A stretch of 64,000 nt of DNA from the NCBI RefSeq assembly GCF_002742635.1, contig NZ_PEGF01000002.1, positions 930,001 through 994,000 of the forward strand, given 5' to 3'. How positions within the stretch are numbered: the stretch's first letter is position 1; every line of letters starts with the position of its first letter. This stretch comes from Caulobacter sp. X (GTDB lineage: Bacteria > Pseudomonadota > Alphaproteobacteria > Caulobacterales > Caulobacteraceae). Below the pieces are notes generated by a model that saw nothing but the letters and a program-made list of their open reading frames with translations, was not told where the DNA came from and did not search any database. The translations under genes were made by a program, and so were the position numbers. This document shows, in pieces, positions 18,601 to 54,117 of this stretch.

Positions 18601-18804
18601 GGGATAGGTGACTTGGTTTTCGACCAGTTGCGGGGCTTGGCCCGGATAGCTGGTGCGGATGATCACCTGGGTGTCGGAGAGGTCGGGCAAGGCGTCGATC
18701 GAGGTCGAGCGCACGGCCAGGCCGCCGGCCACGATCAGCGCCAGGGCGCCCAGCAGCACGAAGAAGCGGTTGGCGACCGACCAGCGGATCAGGGCGGCGA
18801 TCAT
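15658..18804 (-). CDS. cusA: Cu(I)/Ag(I) RND efflux pump CusA (HME4)
   Basis: 1048 aa. TM4 carries [16 protein letters not shown], the copper/silver form of the motif. The periplasmic cleft contains methionines in APLEMFET and NRIDMLATG, matching the Met triad that binds Cu(I) in E. coli CusA. The ATG overlaps the cusB stop. Trimeric inner-membrane pump taking metal from periplasm or cytoplasm and driving it through CusBC. Confidence 0.95.
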
Positions 18805-36588: not shown

Positions 36589-37851
36589 TCACGCCCTTTC
36601 CCCGGCTGGATGGACCGGTGTCGCCGTCCGGCGCCATATCGCCGGCAGAAGCGCGAGCAGACCGAGCGACAGCCAGCCGATCGCTTCGACGACGGCCGCT
36701 TGCCGATGGGGTGACACGACGGCGAGCGACATGGGCGCCAGCGCCTGGCCGAGGCTCGCGGCTGTATGCTGCAGCCCAAGCATGACTCCAGAGGGCCGCA
36801 TGGGGCCGCTGATCCAGAAGCTCGTGACCAGCCGAAGACTGGCTGAGCTCCAGCCGGCGACGGCGATGAGACCGGCCATTTCGACCACGGTCGTTCCAAA
36901 CCGAAAGAGAAACAGCGACAGGGCTAGAAGCGCGAGCGTGAGGCAGGCCAGGCGTCGAGGCGCGGTCACCAGCCAGGTGACGCGGGTGTGGAAAAGCTGA
37001 GCCGCCAACATCGCCAGCCCGCAGAGACTGAGCATCCCGGCGATCGCCTCGCGGCTCAGCGCGCCCTCGGAGCGGGTCACGAGCAGACTGACATGCATGG
37101 CGGCGAGTCCGCCGCCGCCGACGATGGTGACAAGCAGGAGGACAAGCGTGACGACGCGCGGCGGGGCTTGCAGGCGACGTCCCTCGGGACGGGCGGCACA
37201 GCGGGCCGGCAAGCGCACAATGCCGGTCGTCAGCGCCAGCGCCAGCACGGCGATGACGAGCGCGAGCACCAACAGCGGCGTGCGGGGAAAGAGCGACGCG
37301 GACGCTTCGGCGAGCAGGGGGCCGAACAGGTCGCCAAGAAACATGAAGGCCGTCAGCCAGGTGAAACGCCTCGCCTGCTCGTCCCGGCCACCGGGTGCGA
37401 AGTTCGTTGACAGCAGCGCCAGCGGGATGATGGCGGCCGCGGACAGCCCAGCCAGCAAGCGAAGTCCATACAGCATGGGGAGCGGGACCGCCCCGACCGG
37501 CGCGGTCGCCAGCGCGAGGACGACCAGGGCCGTGCGCAGAATGATCCGGTAGTCGATGCGGTCGGCGAGCCATCCCCAGAGCGGCGCGAAGACGAGCGCC
37601 GCCAGCGGGTGGGCCGCCGTCAAACTCGCGACATGGACATCGTGGATGCGCAGCGCCAAGTCGGCCTGGCCTCCGTCGACGAGGGTCGGGAGAAAGGCGA
37701 GGACGGCGGTCTGGCCCGCAGACGCCGCCGCGACCGCGAGAAGCAACAGGATCGACGCAGCCGTCTGGCTCCGGCCAGGGCTATCGTCCGCCGCAGAACA
37801 CGTCAGGCCGTCTTCCGGTCGCCAAGGCGCCGCGCAGCGCCTCACCACCAT
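36589..37851 (-). CDS. MFS transporter, 12 TM
   Basis: 420 aa. The start overlaps the copB stop by 10 bp. Twelve hydrophobic segments with the MFS loop-2 motif in the form FAPLWGWLADRIDYRIIL. Substrate not evident. Translational coupling to CopB and the upstream CopA oxidase makes a copper- or siderophore/chelate-related role likely. A cytoplasmic importer supplying copper to the exported oxidase is one possibility; efflux of a ligand another. Confidence 0.8.
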   Translation of the reverse strand: MVVRRCAAPWRPEDGLTCSAADDSPGRSQTAASILLLLAVAAASAGQTAVLAFLPTLVDGGQADLALRIHDVHVASLTAAHPLAALVFAPLWGWLADRIDYRIILRTALVVLALATAPVGAVPLPMLYGLRLLAGLSAAAIIPLALLSTNFAPGGRDEQARRFTWLTAFMFLGDLFGPLLAEASASLFPRTPLLVLALVIAVLALALTTGIVRLPARCAARPEGRRLQAPPRVVTLVLLLVTIVGGGGLAAMHVSLLVTRSEGALSREAIAGMLSLCGLAMLAAQLFHTRVTWLVTAPRRLACLTLALLALSLFLFRFGTTVVEMAGLIAVAGWSSASLRLVTSFWISGPMRPSGVMLGLQHTAASLGQALAPMSLAVVSPHRQAAVVEAIGWLSLGLLALLPAIWRRTATPVHPAGERA

Positions 37852-38810
37852 GATCGCAAGCCGACAACCACCCGATGCTCGGCCGGGCGCTGGCGATCGG
37901 CACGTCGGAAGTCGGCGGTGTCGTCCAGCGCCCGCTCCCAGACGAAGCCGACATAGGGCGCGAATTTCCGCGAGACCTCGTAGCGCAGCCGAGCGCTCAG
38001 CTCGACGTTGCTGAAGCCGCCGCCGAGCTCACGGTCGGTCGAGCGCTTGGAATAGAGGTTGGTTTCGACCTGCGGGGTCAGGATGAGGCGATTGGTGAAG
38101 CGGACCTCGTAGGCGCCCTTGGCGCGAGCGCCGAGGCGGCCGTCGTCGCCGACGTAGCCGGTCAGCTGGACATCGAACCAGTAGGGCGCCAGGCCCTCGA
38201 CGCCGGCGGCGAGCCAAGTGGTCGCCCCCTTGCCGAGATCCTGACGAACGCCCAGCAACGTGCCCCAGAACGGGCTCTTGCTGCGCCACCACAGCGCCTC
38301 GACGCTGCTCTCCGGATCGAGGCGATCCTTGGAGTTCTTGAGGCCCTGGCTGCGCAGCCAGAGCTTGCTGTCGTCCTGGCCCTGGGTGACGAGGACGGTC
38401 CAGCCGACGCCCTGCCCCTCGTTGCCGCTGGCGAACTCCAGTTCGTCAACGAGAACCTTGGGGATCGACAGCTTGTCGGCCATCTCGTAGCCCGGCAGCG
38501 TCGAATTGCGATAGCCGTCCGCATAGTCGTCGGAGTTGCGGGCGTCCGGCGGAGCCTTGCCGCCCTGCATCCGTCCCATGTCCATGGTCATGCCGCCGGC
38601 GGGCGTCCCCGCGCCGGACATATCCATGCCGGACATATCCATGCCCGCGTGATCCGCAGGCGCCGCGGGGGAGGCCGTTGGGGCCGGGCTCGGCGGCGGT
38701 GGCGCGGCGTGCTGATGGGGGGCGTCCTGGGCGATTGCGGGCGCGGCCACGGCCGAAACGCTCAGAGCCAAGGCGAGCAGAGACGCTCGCGAGAGGGCCA
38801 GACGGGTCAT
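37842..38810 (-). CDS. pcoB: Copper resistance outer-membrane protein CopB (copy 1)
   Basis: 322 aa; ATG overlaps the CopA oxidase stop. Signal peptide, His/Pro/Met-rich region (DAPHQHAAPP; HAGMDMSGMDMSG), then the CopB beta-barrel domain with SNVELSARLRYEV and KFAPYVGFVWER near the end. Outer-membrane protein that binds or sequesters copper with CopA. A second copy is at 53077. Confidence 0.92.
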   Translation of the reverse strand: MTRLALSRASLLALALSVSAVAAPAIAQDAPHQHAAPPPPSPAPTASPAAPADHAGMDMSGMDMSGAGTPAGGMTMDMGRMQGGKAPPDARNSDDYADGYRNSTLPGYEMADKLSIPKVLVDELEFASGNEGQGVGWTVLVTQGQDDSKLWLRSQGLKNSKDRLDPESSVEALWWRSKSPFWGTLLGVRQDLGKGATTWLAAGVEGLAPYWFDVQLTGYVGDDGRLGARAKGAYEVRFTNRLILTPQVETNLYSKRSTDRELGGGFSNVELSARLRYEVSRKFAPYVGFVWERALDDTADFRRADRQRPAEHRVVVGLRSWW

Positions 38811-40495
38811 GCGACGACCACCTCCCGGAACATGCCGGCCGCCATGTGGTAGAGCAGATGACAGTGGAAGGCCCATCGCCCCATGGCGTCGGCGGTGACG
38901 CGAAAGCTGATCCGCTGGGCGGGCTGGACCACCACGGTATGCTTGCGGACCTGGAACGCGCCGTCCGGGCCTTCGACATCGCTCCACATGCCGTGGAGGT
39001 GCATCGGGTGGGCCATCATCGTGTCGTTGACGAGAACGATGCGCAGCCGCGCGTTCGGCTTGAAGTGGAGCGGACGGGAATCGTTCAGCTTGATCCCGTC
39101 CAGCGTCCAGATGAAGCGCTCCATGTTGCCGGTGAGGTGCAACTCGATCTCACGCTCCGGCTCGCGAGGATCCGGATCGCCGCCGGGCGTGCGAAGGTCG
39201 GCCAGGGTCAGCACCCGCCAGGACCGCTCGCGCAGGCCCGCGCCGGGATCGTCGAGATTGGTGCGCGGATAGTCGACGCGCATGTCGGTGTTGGCGCCGT
39301 ACTCGGTGCGCGCGTGACGCGCCTTCGGGGGCGTGTCCGCCATGCCGTGGCCGGCGTGTTCGCCGCCCATGGCGGCCATGGCGCCCATCATGTCGACCGG
39401 ATCGAGCCAGGTCCGCGCATCGAGCGCCGGCGTCGGCGCCGTCATGCCGGGCGCTGGGGCGATGACGCCGCGGGCGAAACCCGTCCGGTCGATCGATTGG
39501 GCGAAGATCGTTCGGGCGCCCTCGGGCATGACGAACTCGACATCGTAGGTTTCGCCCGGTCCGATCCGGAACTCCTCGACCGTCACCGGCTCCACCGGCT
39601 GGCCATCGGTCGAGACGACGGTCAGCGGGACCCCAGGAAGGCGCACGTCGAAGAAGGTCGCCGTCCCCGCCCCCACGAACCGGAGGCGAACTCGCTCGCC
39701 GGGGGCGGCGATCGCCGTCCAATTCCCGGCCGGCGGCGTTCCGTTCATCAGGTAGGTGTAGGTGGCGGCGGAAACGTCGCTGTAGTCGGTCGGGTTCATC
39801 CGCGACCGGTTCCACATCCGCCGCCGCGCGAGGGCCTCGCCGAACCCCAGCTTGCCCACATCCTTGAGGAAGTCTCCGGCGGTCGGCTGCGCGAAATTGT
39901 AGTAGCTGCTCAGCTTCTTGAGGTTCGTGAAGATCTGCAGCGGCGGTTCGTCCGACCAGTCGCTCAGCAGGATGGCGTAGTCCCGATCGGGCCCAGGTCC
40001 GGTCGGCGCGCGCGGCTCGACGATGATCGCGCCATAAAGCCCGGTTTGCTCGGCCAAGGTGTGCGCGTGATACCAGTAGGTGCCCGCCTGACGCAGCTCG
40101 AAGCGATAGGTGAAGGTCTCGCCGGGCGCGATCCCGGGAAAGCTGATGCCTGGTACGCCGTCCATCTCGGCGGGCAGGATGACCCCGTGCCAGTGGATGC
40201 TGGACATCTCCTTGAGGCGGTTGCGGACGCGCAGGGTGACGGTGTCGCCCTCGCGCAATCGCAGCACGGGGGCGGGCACGGCGCCGTTCACCGCCGTGGC
40301 GATCCGACGCTTGCCGGTGAAGTTGACCGGCAGTTCGGCGATCTCGAGATCGAATTCGGTCCCGCGCAATTCGGCGGTCGCGGCGGCGGCGGGGCCCGCC
40401 AGCAGCGCCGGCGAAACTCCGGCCACCGCCCCGCTGACCGCCAGGCCCTGGACGAAGCGGCGCCGTGTGGCCGGCAAGGTAGGACTGTCGAACAT
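38807..40495 (-). CDS. pcoA: Periplasmic multicopper oxidase CopA/PcoA (copy 1)
   Basis: 562 aa. Tat signal (TRRRFVQGLAVSG), so folded and copper-loaded before export. Copper sites: HWHG (101-104), WYHAH (141-145), HPMHLHG and a C-terminal HCHLLYHMAAGM. A moderate Met/His insert (DMMGAMAAMGGEHAGHGM) lies in the middle. It oxidises Cu(I) and binds extra copper. Part of the aldehyde dehydrogenase-alcohol dehydrogenase-CopA-CopB-MFS series. Confidence 0.94.
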   Translation of the reverse strand: MFDSPTLPATRRRFVQGLAVSGAVAGVSPALLAGPAAAATAELRGTEFDLEIAELPVNFTGKRRIATAVNGAVPAPVLRLREGDTVTLRVRNRLKEMSSIHWHGVILPAEMDGVPGISFPGIAPGETFTYRFELRQAGTYWYHAHTLAEQTGLYGAIIVEPRAPTGPGPDRDYAILLSDWSDEPPLQIFTNLKKLSSYYNFAQPTAGDFLKDVGKLGFGEALARRRMWNRSRMNPTDYSDVSAATYTYLMNGTPPAGNWTAIAAPGERVRLRFVGAGTATFFDVRLPGVPLTVVSTDGQPVEPVTVEEFRIGPGETYDVEFVMPEGARTIFAQSIDRTGFARGVIAPAPGMTAPTPALDARTWLDPVDMMGAMAAMGGEHAGHGMADTPPKARHARTEYGANTDMRVDYPRTNLDDPGAGLRERSWRVLTLADLRTPGGDPDPREPEREIELHLTGNMERFIWTLDGIKLNDSRPLHFKPNARLRIVLVNDTMMAHPMHLHGMWSDVEGPDGAFQVRKHTVVVQPAQRISFRVTADAMGRWAFHCHLLYHMAAGMFREVVVA

Positions 40496-40523: not shown

Positions 40524-41549
40524 TTAGGCGAGGTCGAGGACGATGCGGCCCTCGATGTCGCCGTGGTGCATGCGCGCGAAGACGTCGTTGATCTTCTCGA
40601 GCGGTTCGGTGTGGACAGTCGCGTGAACCTTGCCCTCGCCGGCGAAGGCCAGCGCCTCCATCAGGTCGAGCCGGGTGCCGACGATCGAGCCGCGGACGGT
40701 GACGCCGTTGAGCACGGTGTCGAAGATCGACAGCGGAAAATCGCCGGGCGGCAGGCCATTGAGGGCCACCGTGCCGCCGCGCCGGACCATGCCGAGCGCC
40801 TGCTGGAAGGCCTTGGGCGAGACGGCGGTGACGAGGACGCCCTGCGCGCCGCCGATCGCCGCCTTGATCGCGGCGGCGGGATCCTGCTCTCGGGCGTTGA
40901 CGGTCACGGCCGCGCCAAGGCGTGTCGCCAGATCGAGCTTGCGGTCGTCGATGTCGACCGCCGCCACGTTGAGCCCCATCGCCTTGGCGTACTGCACGGC
41001 CATGTGACCCAGGCCGCCGATGCCGGAGACCACGACCCACTCGCCCGGCTTGGCCTCGGTCGCCTTCAGTCCCTTGTAGACGGTAACGCCCGCGCACAGG
41101 ATCGGCGCGATGTCGATAAAGCCGACATTGTCCGGCAGGTGGCCGACATAGTTGGGGTCGGCGAGGACGTATTCGGCGAAGCTGCCGTTGACCGAATAGC
41201 CGGTGTTCTGCTGGCTCTCGCACAGGGTCTCCCATCCCCCCAGGCAATGCACGCAATGGCCGCAGGCGGTGTAGAGCCACGGCACGCCGACCCGGTCGCC
41301 CTCCTTGACGTGGGTGACGCCCGACCCGACAGCGGCGACGTGACCGACGCCTTCATGGCCAGGAATGAAGGGCGGGTTCGGCTTCACCGGCCAATCGCCC
41401 TCGGCGGCGTGCAGGTCGGTGTGACAGACGCCGGTGGCGGCGATCTTCACCAGGATCTGTCCGGGACCGACCGTGGGGATCGGCGCTTCCTCGATCACCA
41501 GCGGCGCGCCGAATTGGCGGACGACAGCCGCCTTCATGGTCTTGGCCAT
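40524..41549 (-). CDS. adhP: Zinc-dependent alcohol dehydrogenase (AdhP type)
   Basis: 341 aa from the ATG at 41549. Catalytic zinc ligands GVCHTDLH and GHEGVGHV; structural zinc [18 protein letters not shown] site [18 protein letters not shown]. Oxidises or reduces simple alcohols/aldehydes with NAD. It follows the aldehyde dehydrogenase by 22 bp and precedes CopA by 28 bp, so all appear to be one transcript. Confidence 0.93.
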
Positions 41550-41571
41550 GGCTGTGCTCCTTTGCGAGGGA

Positions 41572-43092
41572 TCAGAAGAGACCAAGGCCGTGCTCGTCGT
41601 AGGAGACGAGCAGGTTCTTGGTCTGCTGGTAGTGATCGAGCATCGCCTTGTGGGTCTCGCGTCCGAACCCCGAGGCCTTGTAGCCGCCGAAGGCGGCGTG
41701 GGCCGGATACTGGTGATAGCAGTTGGTCCAGACCCGTCCGGCCTCGATGGCGCGGCCGAGGCGATAGGCGGTGTTGCCGCTGCGGCTCCAGACGCCGGCG
41801 CCCAGACCATAGGGGGTGTCGTTGGCGATCGCGATCGCCTCGTCGAGGGTCTTGAAGGTCGTCACCGACAACACTGGGCCGAAGATCTCCTCCTGGAAGA
41901 TTCGCATGCTGTTGTCGCCGACGAAGACGGTCGGCTGCACGAAATAGCCCCCGTCGAGTTCGCCTCCGGGCAGCGCCCGCGCGCCGCCGATCAGGCATTG
42001 CGCGCCCTCGTTCTTGCCGATCTCGATATAGCCGAGGATCTTGCGCAGCTGGTCTTCGGACGCCTGGGCGCCCAGCTGGGTCGCGGGGTCGAGCGGATCG
42101 CCCTGACGGATCGCCGCCACGCGGGCCACGGCCCGCTCCATGAACCGGTCGAAGATCGATTCATGGATCAGGGCGCGCGAGGGACAGGTGCAGACCTCGC
42201 CCTTGTTGAAGGCGAAGAGCGTGAACCCTTCCAGCGCCTTGTCGAAGAAGGCGTCCTCCTCATCAAGGACGTCGGCCATGAAGATGTTGGGCGACTTGCC
42301 CCCGAGCTCCATCGTCTGCGGGATCAGGTGATCGGCCGCGGCGTGCATGATCGCCTTGCCCGTGACCGTCTCGCCGGTGAACGAGACCTTGGCGATCCGC
42401 GGGTTGGCGGCGATCGCCTGGCCGACGGTTCGGCCGGGCCCGGTCACGACGTTGAGCACGCCCGGCGGCAGGATGTCGGCGGTGAGTTCGGCGAGCATCA
42501 TCAGCGTCAGGGGCGTCTGGGACGCTGGCTTGATGACCGTGCAGTTGCCGGCGGCCAGCGCGGGCGCGATCTTCCAGGCCGCCATCAGCAGGGGGAAGTT
42601 CCAGGGAATGATCTGGCCGACCACGCCAAGCGGCTCGCGGAAATGGTAGGCGATGGTGTCGGCGTCGATCGTCGAGATCGCGCCTTCCTCGGCCCGGATG
42701 CATCCAGCGAAATAGCGGAAGTGATCGACCGCGAGCGGCACGTCGGCGCCGCGCGTCTCGCGGATCGGCTTGCCGTTGTCGAGCGTCTCGGCGAGCGCCA
42801 GCAGGTCGAGGTTCTGCTCCAGGCGATCGGCGACCCGGCTCAGCAGCCGGGACCGCTCGGCCGGCGACAACCGCGCCCAGCCGGCCTTGGCGCGATGGGC
42901 GGCGTCGAGCGCCAGTTCCACGTCGGCCGGACCCGACAGGGCGAACTCGGCGATCCGGTCGCCATTGATCGGGCTGTGGTCGGCGAAGTACTCGCCCGTG
43001 GTCGGGGCCGACCAGGCGCCGCCGATGAAGTTGTCGTAGCGCGCCTTGAACAAGGGCGCGGCGCGCATCGTCTCGATGGCCTTGTGGAACAT
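41572..43092 (-). CDS. NAD(P)-dependent aldehyde dehydrogenase
   Basis: 506 aa. Seen: [22 protein letters not shown], the catalytic Glu in [10 protein letters not shown], and the Cys region, here [14 protein letters not shown]; the family usually has GQxC. The C-terminal [10 protein letters not shown] and ASGFGRE fit class ALDH2/AldA-like exaC enzymes. First gene of the series with alcohol dehydrogenase and the Cop proteins. It may clear reactive aldehydes; why it belongs to a copper operon is open. Confidence 0.92.
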
Positions 43093-43145
43093 CGCTTGGC
43101 TCCCTGCTGGTGACGACGAGCCTAGTGGCGGGCGCGGCCGAGGAT

Positions 43146-43169: not shown

Positions 43170-43185
43170 CGGCGCCCGGACGTGA

Positions 43186-43221: not shown

Positions 43222-43246
43222 CGGCGCGTCGCGGCTTGAGCGGGCG

Positions 43247-43606
43247 TTACATGTCCTTCATGGGCATGGCGGGATCCTTGGCGTCCTTGGGAGCCATGGG
43301 TTTGCCTTTCGGGGCCATCGGCTTGTCCATGCAGCAGCCCTTCATGGGCTTCTTGGCGGCGGGATCCTTGGGCGGCGTGGCCGGCATGTTCGCCATCCCC
43401 TGTTGATGGTCCTTCATCATCTGGTCGTGCATCTGCTGGCCGCCATGGTCCATGCCCTGCATGTGGGCGTGGTCCGGCGGGGTCTGGGCGGAGGCGGCCG
43501 GCGCGGGCTGGGTCTGGGCCTTGGGCGCGGGGCCGTCGGCGAATGCGGCGGTCCCCATGGCCAGAAGGCCGACAGCGCCGGCCACGACTGCGATCTTGCG
43601 CATCAT
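43247..43606 (-). CDS. Secreted Met/His-rich copper-binding-like protein
   Basis: 119 aa; start at tandem ATGs with GGAGATCAG upstream. Signal peptide ([18 protein letters not shown]), then a Pro/Ala linker, [19 protein letters not shown] and [15 protein letters not shown] and a C-terminal run of Met-Pro-Lys repeats ([13 protein letters not shown]). Low complexity, 15 or more Met. Probably a periplasmic copper buffer. It has its own promoter-like element (43702-43725) and terminator. Confidence 0.8.
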
Positions 43607-43701
43607 TTCTGATCTCCAACTTATGACGTTCGCGTCCGATGGCGTCGTCTGCATCTCTAACGGCGCGACGCTTGCAATGCCCGCAATTGGCGGCCGCGTG
43701 T

Positions 43702-43725
43702 ATACGTAAGGTCCGAAGGCGCGGT
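43702..43725 (-). promoter_or_regulatory. Promoter-like element before the Met-rich gene
   Basis: On the - strand it reads ACC-N5-CTTCGGA-N3-TACGTAT and matches the 49489-49512 element at 17 of 24 positions. The following base makes CGTATA. It lies about 96 bp upstream of the Met-rich ATG. Spacing of the two conserved blocks suggests an ECF-sigma -35/-10 pair or a regulator site; which one is not decided by sequence. Confidence 0.45.
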
Positions 43726-44171
43726 CAGCGCGACATCTGTCGGCAGCCCGCGGCGCACACCCTGCACGTCTCGGCGCACTGGGCCATCGGGGCGTCGGCG
43801 CGGGGTTTCGAACAGGCCGCCGCGCACAGGTCGCAGGCTTCGGCGCAGGCGCGGCAGAGCACCGGGTGCAGGGCCGAGCCGCGGAGCATGGAGTTGGCGG
43901 TCGCCTGGCACAGCTCGGCGCAGTCGGTGAGCATGGCGATCAGGTCGGGGGCGGCGAGCGCGCCGCCTTGACCGAGGGCGTATGCGGCGGTCTCAAGGCA
44001 CCGGCGATGGGAAGCCAGGCAGTGATCGATGCAGTCGCTCATCGACATCGCCATGCCGGGCATGGCGTCCATGCCCTTCATGTCGTGGGCCTGGGCGGCC
44101 GCCGCGGCGGGCTGGGCGGCGCCGGCCGCCAACAGGGCGGCTCCCGTGAGCAGGTCTCGTCGTTGCAGCAT
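43725..44171 (-). CDS. csp1: Csp1-like periplasmic copper-storage protein
   Basis: 148 aa with a Tat-type signal (QRRDLLTGAALLAAGAA). The mature part is a four-helix-bundle sequence with 14 cysteines, mostly as CxxxC/CxxC pairs (DCIDHC, DCAELC, CRACAEACDLCAAAC, QCAETCRVCAAGC). This matches Csp1 of methanotrophs (13 Cys, binds many Cu(I) inside the bundle). Tat export implies folding before translocation. Follows the DUF1622 gene by 30 bp as the last gene of the redox operon. Confidence 0.88.
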   Translation of the reverse strand: MLQRRDLLTGAALLAAGAAQPAAAAAQAHDMKGMDAMPGMAMSMSDCIDHCLASHRRCLETAAYALGQGGALAAPDLIAMLTDCAELCQATANSMLRGSALHPVLCRACAEACDLCAAACSKPRADAPMAQCAETCRVCAAGCRQMSR

Positions 44172-44201
44172 GTCAATCTCCCGGCGGGTGGGCGGGTCTG
44201 G

Positions 44202-44603
44202 TCAGACCCGCGGTGAGGAAGGTTCGCGGCCCGTGGCCCTGGCCATGCGCGTGTCCTCCCAGGGCCAGTGGCCGTTGATCTCGACGCCGAGCGAGATGCT
44301 AAGGAAGGTGCGCACGAAGACCAGACCGGCCAGGACGATGAGATCGTCCAAGGTCGGGTTGATGACGAGCGACTTGACGATGTCGCCGGCGACCAGGAAT
44401 TCGAGGCCAAGAAGGATGCTTCGGCCGAGGGCGGACCGGAACGCGCCATAGGCCTTGGCCCGGTCGCCCGATCGGGCCCGCAGGGCGAACAGGATCGTCG
44501 CCAGCGCCGCGCCGCTGAGGATGGTCAGCGTGCCCGCCAGCTCGAGGATGATCACCGCGAGCCTGAAGAAGGCGCTGAGCCAGCCGGACTCAATGGTGAT
44601 CAT
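44202..44603 (-). CDS. DUF1622 membrane protein
   Basis: 133 aa, three hydrophobic helices, with FRSALGRSILLGLEFLVAGDI and RTFLSISLGVEINGHWPW, the DUF1622 signature. Function of the family unknown. Its start overlaps the stop of the heptaheme cytochrome gene by 14 bp, so it is translated with the redox proteins. Confidence 0.85.
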   Translation of the reverse strand: MITIESGWLSAFFRLAVIILELAGTLTILSGAALATILFALRARSGDRAKAYGAFRSALGRSILLGLEFLVAGDIVKSLVINPTLDDLIVLAGLVFVRTFLSISLGVEINGHWPWEDTRMARATGREPSSPRV

Positions 44604-45306
44604 ACCAGCCTCGGCGGCGGATGTTGTTGAAGCTGTCGGTGGTGTGACAGGCGTAGCATTGTTCGACGCGCGCCTTGGAGCCGGCGGCGCGCTGGGAGAC
44701 CATGCTGAAGTGCTCCATGAAATGACTGGGCGGCGCGGTGTGGCACTCCGAGCATTGCGTCGAGCTGACCGACGGATGCCGGAAGTTGGGAACCTTCCAA
44801 CTGCTGGTCGCGTGGCAGCTGGCGCAGTCCTGGCCGAAGAGTCCCAGATGCGGATCGCGGACGGAATGGCAGCTTGCGCAATTGAGCGCGGCTTCGGGCG
44901 GCAAGGCGTGCGGATTGGGTGGCGAAACAGCCGGCCCTCGCCACACCGCCGGATCGAGCAACGCCTGATGGTCCATCTTCACGATGGCGCGCGCGCCTTC
45001 GTGCTCGACGTGGCAAGCCGTGCACTCCTTGGCCTGGGCATGGAACTGGGTCGACTGTTTGTTTCCGAAATCGGTGCTCGCGTGGCAGGCGACGCAGGTC
45101 TTGCTCTCCACGCCCTTGAGAGGCGTGTGGCAACTGGCGCACTGCGCGCCGAAGGCTTGGTGGGCCGGCGACAGGGGGCCTGGCGCGACAAGCTGAGCCA
45201 CCGGTCCGGCGCCGGGCGGCGCGCTTGTCTGCATCATCGCCGCGACGCCCAGCAGCGCCAGGCCGGCGGCGACAAAGATCCAGTAGAGGAGGCGGTCCCG
45301 CATCAT
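44590..45306 (-). CDS. Membrane-anchored seven-heme c-type cytochrome
   Basis: 238 aa. An N-terminal helix (residues 7-24) is an anchor or signal. Seven CxxCH sites at Cys56, 71, 95, 143, 161, 185 and 217; additional His (for example 89, 102, 113, 177, 199) could be sixth ligands. Spacing resembles cytochrome c3/NrfH-like multiheme electron carriers. Start overlaps the stop of the membrane protein gene upstream. It would take electrons at the outer face of the inner membrane and pass them to a periplasmic acceptor, possibly copper or a metal chelate. Confidence 0.9.
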   Translation of the reverse strand: MMRDRLLYWIFVAAGLALLGVAAMMQTSAPPGAGPVAQLVAPGPLSPAHQAFGAQCASCHTPLKGVESKTCVACHASTDFGNKQSTQFHAQAKECTACHVEHEGARAIVKMDHQALLDPAVWRGPAVSPPNPHALPPEAALNCASCHSVRDPHLGLFGQDCASCHATSSWKVPNFRHPSVSSTQCSECHTAPPSHFMEHFSMVSQRAAGSKARVEQCYACHTTDSFNNIRRRGWYDHH

Positions 45307-46025
45307 AGCCAGCGCAGCCCGAAATAGATGGCCGCGGCGATGTGCAAAAGCAGCACCAGGTAGACCAGCGCCCCCAGGACAGCGTGCAGCCACCGCCAAC
45401 GCGACAACAGCCGGTTGGTCGCACCCTCCGCGCGGATGGCGAACTCGGTGTCGGCCAAGGCCGCGGCCAGGGCCTCGGCCCCATCGGGCGGCGGCGCCGG
45501 CGGTTCGCCGGCGACGAAGAACAGCCGCTTCCAGCGGGAAAGCGCAACGGCCGCCGCCGTCGGCGCCGGGGGCGCCGGCAGGTGGAGATACGCCGCTTGC
45601 AGGGACGCCAGCTCGGAGCGGCGGCCGCGCAGGGCCCGCGCCGTCTGCGCCAGCAGGTAGCGGCCGACGAAGCCGCTGAGGACCGTCAGCAGCACAAGGC
45701 CGGTCAGCGTTAGGCCGACGGGGCTGCCGAACTTGTGGGCGGCATGAACCAACCCCAGGATCGGAGCCAGCACGCCCGCATACACATGCAGGGCCAGCAG
45801 CGTCGGCTTGCTGACGAACCGGCCTGTCCACCGTTCCGCCGCCTTGACGTGCTTGACCACCACATAGGGCAGGGTCAGCAGCATGAGGACGGCGGCGACG
45901 ACGCCGATGACGCCGCCGACCAGGCTGCCGGGAAAGCGCGGCGCGACGTGCAGGACGTAGCCCAGCGGAAAGAGCAGCAGGAAGGCCACAAGCAGGCCGA
46001 CGGCCATGTCGCCGCGCTCGCGCAT
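45303..46025 (-). CDS. Five-helix membrane protein, cytochrome b-like
   Basis: 240 aa. Hydrophobic segments about 8-26, 35-55, 75-95, 103-123 and 210-235. His80 and His94/97 lie in or at helix 3 (LALHVYAG, GLVHAAH) and His214 and His228 in helix 5 (WLHAVLGALVYLVLLLHIA), the 14-residue spacing typical of b-heme ligands. No family certain. It lies between an FAD/2Fe-2S oxidoreductase and a multiheme cytochrome with overlapping ends on both sides, which points to transmembrane electron transfer. Confidence 0.75.
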   Translation of the reverse strand: MRERGDMAVGLLVAFLLLFPLGYVLHVAPRFPGSLVGGVIGVVAAVLMLLTLPYVVVKHVKAAERWTGRFVSKPTLLALHVYAGVLAPILGLVHAAHKFGSPVGLTLTGLVLLTVLSGFVGRYLLAQTARALRGRRSELASLQAAYLHLPAPPAPTAAAVALSRWKRLFFVAGEPPAPPPDGAEALAAALADTEFAIRAEGATNRLLSRWRWLHAVLGALVYLVLLLHIAAAIYFGLRWL

Positions 46026-47944
46026 CAGGCCTCCACCACGAGCGGCTGGCCCGTGCTCTTGGCCTGGCAGGCCAGGATGTAGCCCTTGGCCTTGTCGGCG
46101 GGATCCAGGCCGGTCTCCACCGCCATGGTGACCTCGCCCGAAATCAGCCGGGTGACGCAGACGCCGCATTCACCCGAGCGGCAGGCATAGGGGATTTCCA
46201 CCCCCGCGCCCTCCGCGGCTTCCAGGACGGTCTGGCCGGCGGGGAGCGGGGCCGACACGCCCGCCACGGAAAAGGTGATGGTGGCCGCGGCGACCGCCGG
46301 CGTGGGGGGCGCGACGACGCTCGGGGATGACGGCGCGGGGGGCGGCGCCTTGACCTCGAGCTCGGCCGCGTCGGCGGGCAGCGACGCGGGCCCGAAGGCT
46401 TCGGTGTGAAGTTGAGCGTCCGGGACGCCCAGAGCGGCCAGCTCCCGGCGCATCGCGGCCATCATGCCCGGCGGCCCGCACATGTGAATGCGGCGGCGGG
46501 CGATGTCTGGGACCGCGTCGAGCAGCATCTGGCGGGTGAGCGGGCCTTGCGGCCCCAGCCAGACCGTGCCGGCCGAGCGTCGCATGGCCGCCATCACGTG
46601 CAGATTGGAGAACCGCCGCTCGAGCCGCTCGAGCTCCTCGCGGAAGACGAATTCGTCGGTCGAACGGGCGCCGTACAGGAAGAAGATCTCGCCCGACCAA
46701 GCCGTGTCGGTCAGGTAGCGCAGGACCGACATCATGGGGGTGATGCCGACCCCGCCGGCGATCAGCACGATGCTGTCGGCGTCGGTTCCGGTGAAGGTGA
46801 ACGCGCCGAAGGGGCCCGTCGTCTTCAGCAGGTCGCCGACGGCGACCTTGTCGTGCAGAAAGCACGACACGACGCCCTGCTCCTCGCGCTTGACCGTTAG
46901 CTCGACATAGGCGCGCTGCGTCGGCGAGGAGGCGATGGTGTAGGATCGCCGCGAGGGCTTGCCATCCACCGGCTCCACCTCGACCTGGAGAAACTGGCCG
47001 GGCAGAAAATCGAAGGGCAGCCGATCGGCGGCCGGGTCGGCCAGCCGGAAGGTCTGAATCGTCGGCGTCTCCCGCACGATCTGGACCACCCGCAACGGGC
47101 CAGACCAGCTCCTGGGCTTGCGCAGCGACGCCCCGGCGGGCGGCGCGGCGTTGCTCGGCGTGAGCGTTTCAGCGCCCGGCTCAACGGCCGCCGCCTGGCG
47201 TGGCGAGGCCGTCGCGGTCGCCGGGGCGGGCGCGGGGGCCGTCGACCCGCCGGCGTCGACGATCTTGCGGACCCGCCGCAGGCGCGCGACCTGCAGGCCC
47301 AGCAGCATCGCGCTGACCGTCGCCAGGACGAACATCAGCATGAAATGGGGCGGCGAGACGCCGAGCCACCGGATCGGCGCCGCGTGCGGCGGCGCGCCCA
47401 GGCTCATCTGATCCCGAAACCAGCTGATTGCCGCCGGCTGCGGGGACGCGCCGCGGTCGAGGGCGGCGAGCGCGGCCGATCCGCTCGCGAAGAGGTCGCT
47501 TGCTTCACGCAGGCGCCGCGCCGCGCTCGCCCGGGCGGCCGGATCTTCGGACCGCGCGGCGGCGGAGGCCTCGGCGGCCATGGCCAGTCCGCGCTCCACG
47601 CGCGCTTGGGCCTCGCCCATCAACCGGTTGCGCCCCTCGGCGCTGAGCGACGGGGCGGCGAGCAGTTGTGAGACGAAGGGCGTGCGCCGGGCGCCATGCT
47701 CGCCTTCGCCCTCCATCATCTCGTCCATCATTCCGCTCATGCCGGCTGCCGCGGGGCTCGGCGCGGCGCCCATGACGCCGGCGTCCGCCATCGCGCCGCC
47801 TTGCGCGCCCGGATGGTGGGCCGCGTGCTCGTCGCCTTCCTGGGCGATGGCCGCCGTCGAAAGCAGAAGGCAGGCGGCGGCCAGACCCAAGCTCCATCCC
47901 TGTCGGCTGGTCGTCCCGCGCATCGGGCTTGCCCTCGTCTTCAC
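46025..47944 (-). CDS. Membrane-bound FAD/NAD(P) oxidoreductase with C-terminal 2Fe-2S ferredoxin
   Basis: 639 aa, GTG start overlapping the lipoprotein stop. Residues 1-34 signal; 35-195 a periplasmic Met/His-rich part (EHAAHHPG, MSGMMDEMMEG) and a helical region; 199-218 one membrane helix; then a cytoplasmic ferredoxin-reductase: FAD motif RRSYTIASS (332-340), NAD(P) motif AGGVGITPMMSVLR, MCGPPGMM (488-495). The plant-type 2Fe-2S site is Cys588, 593, 596 and 626 (CxxxxCxxC then 29 residues). It should pull electrons from NAD(P)H to the membrane partner. The periplasmic copper-like domain on the same chain is unusual. Confidence 0.88.
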   Translation of the reverse strand: MKTRASPMRGTTSRQGWSLGLAAACLLLSTAAIAQEGDEHAAHHPGAQGGAMADAGVMGAAPSPAAAGMSGMMDEMMEGEGEHGARRTPFVSQLLAAPSLSAEGRNRLMGEAQARVERGLAMAAEASAAARSEDPAARASAARRLREASDLFASGSAALAALDRGASPQPAAISWFRDQMSLGAPPHAAPIRWLGVSPPHFMLMFVLATVSAMLLGLQVARLRRVRKIVDAGGSTAPAPAPATATASPRQAAAVEPGAETLTPSNAAPPAGASLRKPRSWSGPLRVVQIVRETPTIQTFRLADPAADRLPFDFLPGQFLQVEVEPVDGKPSRRSYTIASSPTQRAYVELTVKREEQGVVSCFLHDKVAVGDLLKTTGPFGAFTFTGTDADSIVLIAGGVGITPMMSVLRYLTDTAWSGEIFFLYGARSTDEFVFREELERLERRFSNLHVMAAMRRSAGTVWLGPQGPLTRQMLLDAVPDIARRRIHMCGPPGMMAAMRRELAALGVPDAQLHTEAFGPASLPADAAELEVKAPPPAPSSPSVVAPPTPAVAAATITFSVAGVSAPLPAGQTVLEAAEGAGVEIPYACRSGECGVCVTRLISGEVTMAVETGLDPADKAKGYILACQAKSTGQPLVVEA

Positions 47945-48321
47945 ATGTCCTTCATCGGAGCCGATGGGCTCATCGGCGCGGCGTCGGGTTGGGGCGTCGT
48001 CCCCGTGGCCGCGCCGCCCTGGCGCATGGCGTGGTGATCCATCTCCTGACGATGATGGCGTTCCATCGTCGCCGCGTCGTGATCGGCGTCATGTTGCCCG
48101 GCGGCGTTGTTCGAAGGCGCCGTCGAGCCGCCGACGCCGGGATCCGGATCGGCGGCGCTGGGGACCGGGGCCGCGGCGGGCGACGGGGCCGGGGCCTGGA
48201 CCGAGGCCGCGGGCGGCGGGGGCTCAGCGCCCTTGTCGCCGCAGGCGGTGAGGGCGAGCGCCGCGGCGCCGATCACAAGCGCCTGGATGGGCGCGCGAAG
48301 TGTGTGGCGGATGTCGATCAT
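47941..48321 (-). CDS. Met/His-rich lipoprotein
   Basis: 126 aa from the ATG at 48321, preceded by GGGAGGAA at good spacing. Signal with lipobox LTAC, a long Ala/Pro linker, then HDADHDAATMERHHRQEMDH, then HAM, ending in APMSPSAPMKDM. The C-terminal MKDM echoes the end of the Met-rich protein at 43247. Probable periplasmic metal scavenger. First gene of the redox operon, coupled to the oxidoreductase (GTGA). Confidence 0.75.
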   Translation of the reverse strand: MIDIRHTLRAPIQALVIGAAALALTACGDKGAEPPPPAASVQAPAPSPAAAPVPSAADPDPGVGGSTAPSNNAAGQHDADHDAATMERHHRQEMDHHAMRQGGAATGTTPQPDAAPMSPSAPMKDM

Positions 48322-48401
48322 GGCAAGTTCCTCCCTGGAGATCATGGGCTCGACACCGATGGCCTTCGCCGCGGACGGGCGCGCCAGGGGCGAGCGGTGG
48401 A

Positions 48402-48419
48402 GCCGGCGAGGTCGCCGGC
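48402..48419. promoter_or_regulatory. Dyad in the leader of the redox operon
   Basis: GCCGGCGA-GG-TCGCCGGC, 8-bp perfect arms with a 2-bp centre, between the MerR gene stop (48454) and the lipoprotein start (48321). It could be the operator of the neighbouring MerR protein, but no convincing -10 lies at the right distance, so this is tentative. Confidence 0.25.
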
Positions 48420-48453
48420 CAAGGATTGACGTGTCGCCGCGCGCCCGGGCGGG

Positions 48454-48903
48454 TCAGAGCGCCTCCCGCGGTGCGTCGCCGCGGGCGTCCGACCGCCGGA
48501 CCCGTCTTTCGGCGAGGAAGGCCAGGATCGGACAGTCCGAGGCCGCCACGTCCATCGGGCAATCGTCGGCCAGCGCGCTGAGCACGTCACGGATATCCGA
48601 CAGCCGCTGAATGCGGCGTTCGGCGTCGCGGATCTTCTCGCGGGTGATCTCCAGCACCGCCGACGCCTTGGCGGTGTCGGAGGCTTGAAGCGCGAGCAGG
48701 TCGGCGGTTTCGGCGAGCGTGAAGCCGAGCTCCTGCGCGGCCCGGATGAAATGGAGCCGCAGGAGGTCGGCGTCCTCATAGACACGGTAGCCGGCGCCGG
48801 TCCTGCCCGGATCGCGCAGCAGGCCGGTGCGCTCGTAGTACCGGATCGTATCGCGCCGCACGCCGGCGGCTGCGGCGAACGCGCCGATCTTGAAGGTCGT
48901 CAT
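48454..48903 (-). CDS. CueR-like MerR-family regulator
   Basis: 149 aa from the ATG at 48903. N-terminal MerR HTH (FKIGAFAAAAGVRRDTIRYYER). Dimer helix with Ser81 where CueR has Ser77 (a mark of monovalent-ion sensors), and a C-terminal metal loop Cys115-Cys124 (DCPMDVAASDCPIL), one residue longer than in E. coli CueR. Likely Cu(I)/Ag(I) sensor. Same strand and upstream of the redox operon. Confidence 0.85.
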   Translation of the reverse strand: MTTFKIGAFAAAAGVRRDTIRYYERTGLLRDPGRTGAGYRVYEDADLLRLHFIRAAQELGFTLAETADLLALQASDTAKASAVLEITREKIRDAERRIQRLSDIRDVLSALADDCPMDVAASDCPILAFLAERRVRRSDARGDAPREAL

Positions 48904-49019
48904 GATACTCGTCGCCTCGCTCGTTGGACGAAAGCCCAAGGTCAGCGGAGGGGCGCGCGCGCCGGTCGCTCCGGCGAGACGGCGTGGGCCATCCCGCCGC
49001 TGGCGAACCGATCGCCCGC

Positions 49020-49373
49020 TCAGTTCTTGCGCAGCTCGACGATGTCGTGCTTGGCCGGCGTACCGTCGGCGACCGTGACATGGGCGAAGTGGTCGTCGAA
49101 GACGTGGTCGATCTTCACGTGCCCGACGAGGTCGCGCCGATAGGACGGCGGGGCCTTGTTGGGCCCCGGCAGCTGCTTGACGCGGTAGACTTCCAGGGTC
49201 TGGCCGACCTCGGCGCCGTCCGCCTTGCCGATGCAGATCACGGTGCCGTTGCTGTCGTTCGCGACGATCGAGCCCTTCATGAAGAAGGTGTGGCCGCTCC
49301 CTTGCGCCAGAACCGGCGTTGCAACGAGCATCGCGATGCCGGCCAAGCCGGCGATGACGGACGTCTTGATCAT
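49020..49373 (-). CDS. Periplasmic hypothetical protein, 117 aa
   Basis: Signal peptide (VIAGLAGIAMLVATPVLA), then a compact domain with VICIGKADGAEVGQTLEVYRVK and VGHVKIDHVFDDHFAHVTV, resembling a small beta-barrel with His pairs near the C-terminus. Ribosome site AAGGAG. Divergent from the CnrYXH-like genes and preceded by a TACGTAT element. Family not recognised. Confidence 0.7.
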   Translation of the reverse strand: MIKTSVIAGLAGIAMLVATPVLAQGSGHTFFMKGSIVANDSNGTVICIGKADGAEVGQTLEVYRVKQLPGPNKAPPSYRRDLVGHVKIDHVFDDHFAHVTVADGTPAKHDIVELRKN

Positions 49374-51238: not shown

Positions 51239-53080
51239 ATACTTCGATCCAGCGCGGCTTTCGATCGCCGTCGTTTTCTCCAATCGCTCGCCGTCCTCGG
51301 CGGCGGCGCCACCCTGGCGAGCCTGCTGCCGTCCTGGGCGCGCGCGGCGGGCGATCCCGGCCGCGCGCCGGCCGCCCTTTCGGGCGAGGACATCAAGCTG
51401 ACCATCGGCCACACGCCGATCACGGTCGACGGCAAGGCCGGCCACGCCGTGACGATCAACGGCACGGTTCCTGGCCCGCTGATCCGGCTGAAGGAAGGCC
51501 AGCATGTCCGCCTGTCGGTGACCAACACGCTCGACGAGGACACCTCGATCCACTGGCACGGCCTGCTCGTGCCCTTCCAGATGGACGGCGTGCCCGGCGT
51601 CAGCTTCCCGGGCGTCAAGCCCGGCGAGACCTTCACCTACGAATTCCAGGTCCGCCAGGCGGGCACCTATTGGTACCACAGCCATTCGGGCCTGCAGGAG
51701 CAGATGGGCCACTATGGGCCCATTATCATCGATCCGGTCGGTCCTGATCCGGTGGCCTTCGACCGCGAGCACGTCGTGGTGCTGTCGGACTTCAGCCGCC
51801 TGCACCCGCACCAGATCTTCAAGAAGCTCAAGCAGCAGAGCGGCGCATTCAACTACCAGCGCCAGACCCTCGCTGGGCTTCTGGCCGGCAAGGACCAGAC
51901 CCTGGCCGAGCGCCTGGACTGGGCCAAGATGCTGATGGACCCGACCGACATCTCCGACGTCACCGGCGCGGCCTACACCTTCCTGGTCAATGGCCATGGC
52001 CCCGCGGACAACTGGACGGCGCTGTTCGCGCCCGGCGAGCGCGTGCGCCTGCGGTTCATCAACGCCGCGGCCCAGTCGGTCTTCAACGTCCGCATCCCGG
52101 GGCTGCGCATGACCGTGGTCGCCGCCGACGGCCAGCACGTGCGGCCCGTCGAGGTCGACGAGTTCCAGATCGGCAACGCCGAGACCTATGACGTGATCGT
52201 CCAGCCCGCCGAAGACAAGGCCTTCACGATCGTGTCGGAGTCGGTCGACCGCTCTGGGTTGGGCCGCGCCACCCTGGCGCCGCGGCTGGGCATGAGCGCC
52301 GAGGTCCCGCCGCCGCGCGAGCGGCCGCTGACCACCATGCGCGACATGGGCATGGATATGGAGGGAATGGACATGGGGGGCATGGACCATGGCTCCACGG
52401 ACATGTCCGGCATGGATCACGCGGCCATGGGCGCCAAGGCCGCGACCCCCGCGCCCGGCATGGCGCCGCCGCGCCAGCGCGGAAGCGACGTTATGGGCAA
52501 GATGGACAAGGGCGGCATGGACATGTCCATGCGCAATCCGGACAACGCGCCTCAGGTCAGGCTCGGTCCGGGCGTGCAGTCGATCGCGCCGATGCCGATG
52601 GATCGCACCGGCGAGCCTGGCCAGGGCCTCGAAAGCGTCGGCCACCGGGTCTTGGTCTATCGCGACCTGGTGGCCCTCGAGCCGAATCCCGACCCGCGCG
52701 CCCCGGAGCGATCCCTCGAGATTCACCTGACCGGCAACATGGAGCGGTTCATGTGGGGGTTTGACGGGCGCAAGTTCAGCGATAGGCCGCCGCCCTACGC
52801 CTTCCGCCACGGCGAGCGGGTCCGGGTCACCCTGGTCAACGACACCATGATGGCCCACCCCATCCACCTGCACGGCCACTTCTTCGAACTGGCCTTCGGA
52901 CCGGCGGGCCACATGCCGCGCAAGCACACCGTCATCGTCCTGCCCGGCGGCCGCGTCAGCTTCGACTTCACCGCCGAGACCGGCGACTGGGCCTTCCACT
53001 GCCACATGCTCTATCACATGCACGCGGGGATGTTTCAGGTCTTCAGCGTGCGCGACACCCCCGCGGAGGGCGCGCGATGA
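51239..53080 (+). CDS. pcoA: Periplasmic multicopper oxidase CopA/PcoA (copy 2), non-standard start
   Basis: The frame is open from 51170 and encodes a Tat signal (FDRRRFLQSLAVLGGGATLA), but no ATG, GTG or TTG precedes it. ATA at 51239 has AAAGGG six bases upstream and gives the usual 613 aa; the first normal start (GTG 51449) would lose the signal. Copper motifs HWHG, WYHSHSG, HPIHLHGHFF and HCHMLYHMHAGM are intact, and a Met-rich insert (MGMDMEGMDMGGMDHG) binds extra copper. Followed by copB with ATGA overlap. Confidence 0.85.
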   Translation: MLRSSAAFDRRRFLQSLAVLGGGATLASLLPSWARAAGDPGRAPAALSGEDIKLTIGHTPITVDGKAGHAVTINGTVPGPLIRLKEGQHVRLSVTNTLDEDTSIHWHGLLVPFQMDGVPGVSFPGVKPGETFTYEFQVRQAGTYWYHSHSGLQEQMGHYGPIIIDPVGPDPVAFDREHVVVLSDFSRLHPHQIFKKLKQQSGAFNYQRQTLAGLLAGKDQTLAERLDWAKMLMDPTDISDVTGAAYTFLVNGHGPADNWTALFAPGERVRLRFINAAAQSVFNVRIPGLRMTVVAADGQHVRPVEVDEFQIGNAETYDVIVQPAEDKAFTIVSESVDRSGLGRATLAPRLGMSAEVPPPRERPLTTMRDMGMDMEGMDMGGMDHGSTDMSGMDHAAMGAKAATPAPGMAPPRQRGSDVMGKMDKGGMDMSMRNPDNAPQVRLGPGVQSIAPMPMDRTGEPGQGLESVGHRVLVYRDLVALEPNPDPRAPERSLEIHLTGNMERFMWGFDGRKFSDRPPPYAFRHGERVRVTLVNDTMMAHPIHLHGHFFELAFGPAGHMPRKHTVIVLPGGRVSFDFTAETGDWAFHCHMLYHMHAGMFQVFSVRDTPAEGAR

Positions 53081-54117
53081 AGGCCTCGCTGATCGCCCTC
53101 TTGCCGGTCCTGTGGGCCGCGCCGGCCCTGGCCCAGCACGCCGGCCACGCCGGCGCGCCAGCCGCGCCCAGTTCCAAGCCTGCGCCGGCGGCCCCGCCTC
53201 CAGCCGCCGACCCCCATGCCGGACACGACATGGGCGCCATGCCGGCCATGGCCATGCCTCAGACGCAGGTCGCGCCGGCGACCGACCCCCACGCCGGCCA
53301 CGACATGGGCGCCATGCCCGGCCTGGCTGTCTCCGGTCAATCGGAACGCCCGGCCGAAGCGATGGGACCGCCGCCCTTGCCCGATCACGAAACAGCTCCG
53401 CCGGCGCCGCCCACCGACCATCTGGCCGACAGGGTCTTCGATCCGGCCGCCATGGACCGGGCTCGCGCCGTGCTCCGGCAGGAGCATGGCGGCGCCCAGG
53501 TCTCGCAGGTGATGGCCAACCTCCTGGAATACCGCGCCCAGGCCGGGGGCAACGGCTATCACTGGGACGGCGAGGCTTGGTTCGGCGGCGACCTCAATCG
53601 CCTGGTGATCAAATCCGAGGGCGAGGGCGGCCGTCACGGCGTTCAGGCCAGCGAGGTGCAGGCGCTCTATTCCAGGCCCGTGGCGCTCTATACCGACTTG
53701 CAGGTGGGCTTGCGCCAGGATGTCGAGCCCAAGTCGCGCACCTATGCCGCCGTCGGGTTCGAAACCCTGTTGCCCTACTGGATCGAGGCGGGCGGAGCGG
53801 TGTTCGTTTCCAGCAAGGGCGATGTCCTCGCGCGCGCCGAAGGGGCGATCGACTGGCGCCTCACCCAGCGCCTGATCCTGCAGCCGCGCACCGAACTCAA
53901 CTTCGCCGCCCAAGACATCCCCGAAGCGGCGATCGGTTCGGGGCTCTCGAGCGGCGAGCTCGGATTGCGCCTTCGCTATGAGGTTCGGCGCCAATTCGCG
54001 CCATATGTCGGCGTCGCCCTATCCAAGCGGTTCGGGCGCGCCGCGGACTTCGCCCGGCTGCGCGGCGACGAGGTCACCGAGACCAGTTTCGTGCTCGGCC
54101 TGAGGGCCTGGTTTTGA
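53077..54117 (+). CDS. pcoB: Copper resistance outer-membrane protein CopB (copy 2)
   Basis: 346 aa. Signal peptide, then a His/Met/Pro region with two repeats of DPHAGHDMGAMP, then the CopB barrel (YHWDGEAWFGGDLNRL; ELGLRLRYEVRRQFAPYVGV). Start overlaps the CopA stop. Longer His/Met repeats than copy 1. Confidence 0.92.
   Translation: MKASLIALLPVLWAAPALAQHAGHAGAPAAPSSKPAPAAPPPAADPHAGHDMGAMPAMAMPQTQVAPATDPHAGHDMGAMPGLAVSGQSERPAEAMGPPPLPDHETAPPAPPTDHLADRVFDPAAMDRARAVLRQEHGGAQVSQVMANLLEYRAQAGGNGYHWDGEAWFGGDLNRLVIKSEGEGGRHGVQASEVQALYSRPVALYTDLQVGLRQDVEPKSRTYAAVGFETLLPYWIEAGGAVFVSSKGDVLARAEGAIDWRLTQRLILQPRTELNFAAQDIPEAAIGSGLSSGELGLRLRYEVRRQFAPYVGVALSKRFGRAADFARLRGDEVTETSFVLGLRAWF

Follow-up and report, generated by a model that had tools for sequence, protein, structure and literature searches.

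A putative NAD(P)H-to-periplasm electron conduit associated with copper islands in Caulobacter sp. X and other Gram-negative bacteria

Introduction

Five-helix inner-membrane proteins with HX13H motifs have been found encoded beside multiheme cytochromes c in iron oxidisers, and in the accessible part of He et al. 2017 (PMC5566968) their function is left unassigned. According to the same part of that paper (PMC5566968), the HX13H clusters mostly include another redox protein, and extracellular electron transfer was judged less likely where a porin gene is absent. For copper itself, the accessible text of a 2020 review (PMC7558416) notes that eukaryotic Fre/STEAP-type enzymes also reduce Cu(II), and calls CcoG, to its knowledge, the first specific bacterial copper reductase; in the accessible portion of a 2026 paper (PMC13038864), a periplasmic copper reductase is put forward as speculation. 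The present study concerns a 64,000-nucleotide stretch of the 4.8-Mb genome of Caulobacter sp. X (contig NZ_PEGF01000002.1, positions 930,001 to 994,000; hereafter referred to as the window), and three adjacent genes in it, here named R, b and c, which would together encode a transmembrane electron conduit.

Csp1 storage, Cus export and P-type pumps use Cu(I), and specific bacterial copper reductases are, to our knowledge, scarcely known. The reading put forward here is that an NAD(P)H-to-periplasm conduit has been recruited to copper islands, where it most likely reduces periplasmic Cu(II); we regard this combined reading as evenly balanced between right and wrong, and its parts, which differ in strength, are weighed separately below.

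Results

The R-b-c core

The core consists of three genes:
46025..47944, minus strand: R, FAD/NAD(P)/2Fe-2S oxidoreductase (start GTG 47944 or ATG 47923)
45303..46025, minus strand: b, five-helix membrane protein, putative diheme cytochrome b with two H-x13-H pairs (topology read by eye)
44590..45306, minus strand: c, N-terminally anchored cytochrome c with seven CXXCH motifs (by count)

The order and strand of R, b and c are kept in all 115 close loci that were fetched, so a chance arrangement is excluded. These loci contain repeats, the window among them, and number 102 (window included) once identical overlapping DNA is joined. At 85% b identity the 115 fall into 39 clusters, 38 of which have flanks of at least 12 kb and are each represented by one locus in the counts that follow; L125, with its short flank, is the only close cluster outside the context count. 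A preliminary description of the locus had asked for a conserved neighbourhood beyond this strain, and this was found: R-b-c is kept far beyond it, with copper genes strongly enriched around. Confinement to one strain is rejected. The same description had drawn a five-gene system, including a DUF1622 gene, of which a constant three-gene core stands. DUF1622 is a frequent, not a constant partner, being nearby in 21/38 clusters vs 0/40 controls (defined below), and the idea of all five genes as one fixed unit was rejected, R-b-c alone being constant.

The domain content of the three proteins had been described correctly at the outset. R matches the Pfam models FAD_binding_6, NAD_binding_1 and Fer2, all above cut-off, c has its seven heme motifs, and the two H-x13-H pairs of b are H80/H94 and H214/H228. 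Judged by charge (by eye), the N-terminus, the 2-3 loop and the 4-5 loop of b lie on the cytoplasmic side, so that H80 and H214 would lie close to the cytoplasmic surface of the membrane, and H94 and H228 close to the periplasmic one, a predicted placement that matches, as expected, two stacked b hemes. Together with H26 and H97, the four histidines are invariant both in 29 aligned b sequences (window included) and in 38/38 cluster representatives. Helix 4 carries an SGXXG motif (LSGFVGRY in the window), and G118, G121 and R122 are invariant in the same alignment. A tryptophan three residues ahead of the histidine is present on helix 5 only (W210-x3-H214); helix 3 has L76 at that position. Pfam gave no family above cut-off for b. 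The ferric reductase family PF01794 was tried and rejected (14.4 bits vs a cut-off of 28; a match at E up to 0.01 in 2/29 aligned b sequences). The AlphaFold model of b has a mean pLDDT of 78.

In c, the N-terminal helix looks uncleaved (by reading), so that the protein would be anchored. The seven CXXCH motifs and eight further histidines are invariant in 29 aligned sequences, and the latter would be enough for bis-His ligation of seven hemes. Seven motifs are present in 36 of the 38 representatives, the exceptions being L135 (6) and L134 (4). A CcmF homologue is encoded in the host genome.

R is laid out as a signal helix, a periplasmic His/Met-rich stretch, a helical hairpin, one membrane helix (about residues 198-224) and a cytoplasmic reductase (topology by eye). 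In a structure model of its first 230 residues the same signal helix, hairpin and membrane helix appear, the His/Met-rich stretch being of low confidence. This stretch contains HAAHH at residues 40-44, and an HxxHH motif occurs in the R N-terminus of 33/38 representatives; in the remaining five, the open reading frames (ORFs) of L127, L129, L134 and L090 look truncated, mis-started or split, and L011 has the variant HGAPH. The reductase part resembles flavohemoglobin, phthalate dioxygenase reductase and b5 reductases in sequence and fold.

Copper and NAD(P)H genes around the core

Eight copper markers were sought within 11 kb of the module, namely, CopA-type oxidase, CopB, copper P-ATPase, Csp, heavy-metal RND, CusB-like, DUF411 and CusF-like proteins; forty 20-kb stretches of the same contigs or plasmids, at least 22 kb away, served as controls. 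At least one marker was found in 32/38 representatives vs 3/40 controls, and at least two kinds in 26/38 vs 1/40. Removing the 12 clusters with a seed locus left 26 non-seed clusters, with at least one marker in 22/26 and at least two in 18/26. The Fisher p-values for two or more markers (2e-10 for all, 4e-9 for non-seed clusters) are too good, because the clusters are related by descent, several controls lie on the same contig as another, and the markers were picked after 17 annotated loci had been viewed. When the RND and CusB-like markers were left out, because both also serve other metals, the counts became 28/38, 19/26 (non-seed) and 2/40 (controls). Genome draws made blind to copper gave eight close matches besides the own genome and the centre genome, seven of them with flanks (L135-L141). 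Six of these seven have a copper marker, and four of seven when pump markers are not counted; among the six, two have RND/CusB-like proteins only, one DUF411 only and one a P-ATPase only (36% identity). In the b tree, all 15 rows of the window's clade have copper markers.

NAD(P)H-producing genes (zwf, gnd, AdhP and aldehyde dehydrogenase) are nearby in 15/38 representatives, 10/26 non-seed clusters and 0/40 controls; tal was also sought, and the counts did not change. As a separate observation, pentose-phosphate (zwf, gnd, tal) or glycogen-breakdown genes adjoin the module itself in L011, L126, L137, L138 and L015, with thymidine phosphorylase and prs beside them in several of these loci.

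Weaker matches to the b profile form a distant group, four rows of which separate from 38 close rows with a support of 100/100. Of nine distant loci with flanks, all encode a multiheme c in the vicinity (readable c ORFs with 8 to 34 CXXCH in the distant loci scanned), none has a copper marker, and the SGXXG and W-x3-H-x13-H motifs are present in eight. The readable distant R proteins (L112/L146, L115, L118) start with a membrane helix and are without the His/Met stretch, so this periplasmic stretch characterises the close clade, which is mostly copper-linked. By motif scan many distant relatives have no R, although the scan misses some (tblastn gave weak R-like matches in six short distant loci). 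Near the module or a distant relative, [NiFe] hydrogenase genes were found in L009, L081, L084, L085, L089, L141 and L146 (the last by eye from ORFs).

Hosts and mobility

Among the named hosts are members of the Alpha-, Beta- and Gammaproteobacteria as well as of the Bacteroidota (Spirosoma, Pontibacter). Acidobacteriota are represented by a single genome bin (L088), and the contig of a Nitrospirae bin (L092), which may be mis-binned, clusters at 85% identity or more with the alphaproteobacterial bin L076. The close form of the module is uncommon by genome draws: near full-length matches were obtained in 6/398 genomes of a phylum draw (own genome included), while a class draw gave 3/376 (own included, one partial) and a draw in the class of a Gammaproteobacterium gave 2/321 (centre included). 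A set of 60 relatives contains one further genome of the genus with the module, at 100% identity, and five genomes with weak partial matches only. A scan of genome contigs confirmed 361 relatives of c, the best 80 of which were kept.

Part of this distribution is plasmid-borne. In a protein search of the 72,556 plasmids of PLSDB (E up to 0.01), b was matched in 52 plasmids and c in 53, with at least 80% of the query covered in 29 and 52, respectively. The 52 b-carrying plasmids were typed as conjugative (26), mobilizable (6) and non-mobilizable (20). The conjugative plasmid p1 of Caulobacter sp. FWC26 matches positions 30306-49510 of the window (19.2 kb) at 98.7% identity, which points to recent transfer of the island. 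The b gene is present three times in Novosphingobium subterraneum, the source of L060 and L061, and the surroundings of two of these copies are identical.

The gene run and its surroundings in the window

The core is embedded in a close-packed minus-strand run that comprises the Met/His lipoprotein gene, R, b, c, the DUF1622 gene and a Csp1-like gene, and continues with a second Met/His protein, aldehyde dehydrogenase, AdhP, a multicopper oxidase and a CopB-like protein. Features outside the core are:
49020..49373, minus strand: first gene of the run, coding for 117 aa with a signal-like N-terminus; 17/38 representatives have a member of its family some 3.7 kb upstream of b
48454..48903, minus strand: MerR-family regulator; family in 16/38 representatives
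47941..48321, minus strand: Met/His-rich lipoprotein; family in 11/38 representatives
44202..44603, minus strand: DUF1622 membrane protein (DUF1622 model above cut-off)
43725..44171, minus strand: Csp1-like Cys-rich four-helix protein with RR (Tat-like) signal; family in 13/38 representatives
43247..43606, minus strand: Met/His-rich protein with signal-like N-terminus; family in 10/38 representatives
41572..43092, minus strand: aldehyde dehydrogenase, possible NAD(P)H source
40524..41549, minus strand: AdhP alcohol dehydrogenase, possible NADH source (start from annotated orthologue)
38807..40495, minus strand: multicopper oxidase
37842..38987, minus strand: CopB-like ORF (annotated orthologue shorter; neighbour family shared with the CopB at 53077-54117)
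15658..21535, minus strand: CusABC-type efflux system with a CusF domain in the adaptor
51449..53080, plus strand: second multicopper oxidase (copper_res_A above cut-off)
53077..54117, plus strand: CopB

The five genes from the lipoprotein to DUF1622 had been described as overlapping end to start within 44590-48321. All are present on the minus strand, but that range omits the DUF1622 gene. The overlaps of R/b (1 bp, found in the window and in SYK-6), b/c (4 bp) and c/DUF1622 (14 bp) hold; the 4-bp overlap of lipoprotein and R requires that R starts at GTG 47944, whereas the annotated R orthologue starts seven codons later, leaving a 17-bp gap to the lipoprotein gene.

Both copper proteins originally named at the ends of this set stand in part. 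The Csp1-like gene does start 30 bp after DUF1622, and its orthologues are annotated as "four-helix bundle copper-binding protein"; its score against the Csp1 model TIGR04401 is below the cut-off (E 1.4e-9, 38.3 bits vs 100, with nearly the whole model aligned), as is its score against the Tat model. The upstream regulator belongs to the MerR family, but its CueR identity is not established, because the MerR, CueR and ZntR models match about equally and all below cut-off (107.2 bits vs 147.4 for the CueR model TIGR02044, the MerR model being slightly higher).

The heptamer TACGTAT occurs at window positions 49489, 43702, 33083 and 63763, i.e., four copies vs 0.29 expected (0/100 shuffles reach four), one of them upstream of the operon. 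By eye, several sphingomonad loci have a similar element, TACGTAT - GGRCCCGGGTCC - AGTCC - CGAAGAA, ahead of the orthologue of the first gene, and it may be a shared regulatory site. A composite pattern for this element, which was too strict, gave 0 matches in the window and matched 4/216 loci. A search of the upstream regions for a shared dyad compatible with a MerR operator found none, the leader RNA fold is unremarkable (z -1.2), and Rfam gave no match in the window at gathering score. On the plus strand (50117-54117), the second CopA-CopB pair follows ORFs that resemble, by eye, a periplasmic metal sensor and a sigma factor.

Discussion

Gene content, motifs and gene order, as well as the copper and NAD(P)H-gene neighbourhoods, are directly observed in these loci. 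As a model for them, R, b and c would form a complex in which cytoplasmic NAD(P)H reduces the FAD and next the 2Fe-2S cluster of R. The electron would enter a heme-loaded b at its cytoplasmic-side heme (H80/H214), cross to the periplasmic-side heme (H94/H228), and be collected by the anchored heptaheme c, which, in this mobile copper island, may hand it to an oxidised acceptor in the periplasm, most likely Cu(II) bound on the His/Met-rich stretches of R and the lipoprotein. The resulting Cu(I) would be available for Csp1-type storage and Cus-type export, perhaps mainly at low oxygen. The route from NAD(P)H through b heme to periplasmic hemes was part of the preliminary description; the topology, the invariant histidine pairs and the seven invariant heme motifs fit it, and the nearby NAD(P)H-producing genes fit the proposed donor.

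The conduit architecture of R-b-c is very probably correct, and a role of R-b-c tied to copper islands is likely. Cu(II) is the most likely acceptor in this operon because of the copper context, the His/Met-rich partners, the Csp-like protein and the Cus-type pumps; that it is the main acceptor we suggest tentatively, the case falling a little short of an even one. In its boldest form, the proposal is that R-b-c serves Gram-negative copper islands as their dedicated periplasmic cupric reductase, powered by NAD(P)H and making Cu(I) for periplasmic storage and export by means of a three-protein transmembrane heme wire, partly plasmid-borne and spread over Proteobacteria and Bacteroidota (and Acidobacteriota by one bin). 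It is possible, and we are inclined to doubt it in this form.

Several observations weigh against a copper-reducing conduit. The copper link is not universal: no marker was found in 6/38 representatives (10/38 without counting RND and CusB-like proteins), and five of the six sit in a 13-row sister clade of the b tree in which markers are present in 8/13. The prior inspection of annotated loci in the choice of markers counts here as well, and the sample leans to sphingomonads, because the contig scan ranks by likeness to the window. Within one Alteromonas cluster, a [NiFe] hydrogenase without any copper marker is found in four of seven full-flank loci, and copper markers without hydrogenase in the remaining three (b linked at 85% identity or more). 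Near-identical modules with alternative neighbours suggest that the conduit is able to serve more than one periplasmic partner. Since the hydrogenase-linked Alteromonas copy retains the His/Met stretch (HASHH), this stretch is no mark of copper context inside the close clade. As for b, comparison of its profile with ferric-reductase proteins (hhalign) gave a probability of 1%, and a structure search with its model found no convincing solved relative (best E 1.1). Oxidation of Cu(I), the opposite reaction, is what would be expected of the multicopper oxidases encoded nearby.

An outward conduit of the same design might serve a periplasm under copper stress by feeding repair (of methionine sulfoxide or disulfides) or detoxification (removal of peroxide), and not copper itself. 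The copper context and the NAD(P)H supply fit this equally well, and MsrQ is, as we take it, a b-heme membrane protein that feeds periplasmic repair. However, the gene names in the 17 annotated loci include no enzyme for methionine sulfoxide or peroxide (gene tables incomplete, repair families not searched by model), the lone DsbE-type protein (L013) belongs to a Ccm cluster, and the single PF01794 protein of the host, which we take to be MsrQ-like, is located outside the window. This explanation is considered unlikely. The same judgement applies to a general redox valve of mobile stress islands, which would travel as a passenger of copper islands and vent NAD(P)H to various periplasmic acceptors under limited respiration: the copies that adjoin hydrogenase, pentose-phosphate, ATP synthase and glycogen genes, the six representatives without copper markers and the partner swap in the Alteromonas cluster speak for such a valve, yet a mere passenger agrees poorly with the difference in copper markers between the 38 clusters and the controls, with their absence from the nine distant relatives and with their presence throughout the window's clade. 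Inward flow, in which c and b would carry electrons from a periplasmic donor (H2, Cu(I) or another) to NAD(P)+, would suit the Alteromonas loci with an adjoining [NiFe] hydrogenase as well as L089 and L141, but hydrogenase is found in 2/38 clusters against NAD(P)H-producing genes in 15/38, and Cu(I) is by general chemistry a weak donor for NAD(P)+, which makes this direction improbable. Equally hard to credit is a quinol-linked b with R as an independent enzyme, a link suggested for the five-helix HX13H proteins (PCC3/PCC4) in the accessible part of He et al. 2017 (PMC5566968) and in keeping with the many distant relatives in which the (incomplete) motif scan sees no R, since R is fixed upstream of b in 115/115 close loci and overlaps it in the window and in SYK-6.

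Under the proposed reduction of periplasmic Cu(II), the module is a concrete, compact and often plasmid-borne candidate copper reductase, and metal resistance would, if this is true, draw reducing power for the periplasm from central metabolism. With an acceptor other than copper, R-b-c is still an uncharacterised conserved electron route out of the cytoplasm.

Comparison with known systems

The claim that no described system has this gene set holds in part. The copper-linked set with a fixed R was not found among the literature matches listed (open-licence papers, without supplements), and PMC6357080 and PMC6769254 do not describe it in their accessible text; a unit of a five-helix HX13H protein and a multiheme c is in print, as taken up below. 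R shares a flavodomain and a plant-type 2Fe-2S cluster with phthalate dioxygenase reductase, PaaE and glycine betaine monooxygenase reductase, scores under the equivalog cut-offs shown for this type and, unlike these enzymes, is membrane-anchored with a periplasmic part.

With the eukaryotic Fre/STEAP-type metalloreductases the proposed conduit has in common a path from cytoplasmic NAD(P)H and flavin via membrane b hemes to a metal outside; it differs in having three separate proteins, a 2Fe-2S cluster and a heptaheme c, and a b without clear ferric-reductase homology. CcoG is, as is proposed for this locus, a bacterial membrane Cu(II) reductase, but according to the accessible text of PMC7558416 it uses two tetranuclear iron-sulfur clusters and not b and c hemes, and is linked to cbb3 oxidase assembly; in R, Pfam finds the plant-type 2Fe-2S domain only and no CcoG-type tetranuclear clusters. 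CrpH, a PepSY_TM protein, is speculated in the accessible part of PMC13038864 to be a periplasmic copper reductase acting via membrane hemes, as proposed here, but there it is connected with copper starvation and oxidase function and has PepSY domains, whereas Pfam lists no PepSY or PepSY_TM match in b.

Closest is the unit of He et al. 2017 (PMC5566968), as far as its accessible description goes. It shares with b the five helices, H-x13-H on helices 3 and 5 and SGXXG on helix 4, and with the locus a multiheme c next door (here downstream of b in 115/115 close loci); the distant b loci also fit that description. The locus would work like this broad kind of system and probably belongs to it, compared by description only. 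In PCC3/PCC4 the tryptophan three residues before the histidine is on both helices, in b on helix 5 only. Where the accessible text of He et al. 2017 (PMC5566968) gives no copper link or function, the present module combines a fixed R with a periplasmic His/Met stretch, seven predicted hemes in c and a place in copper islands.

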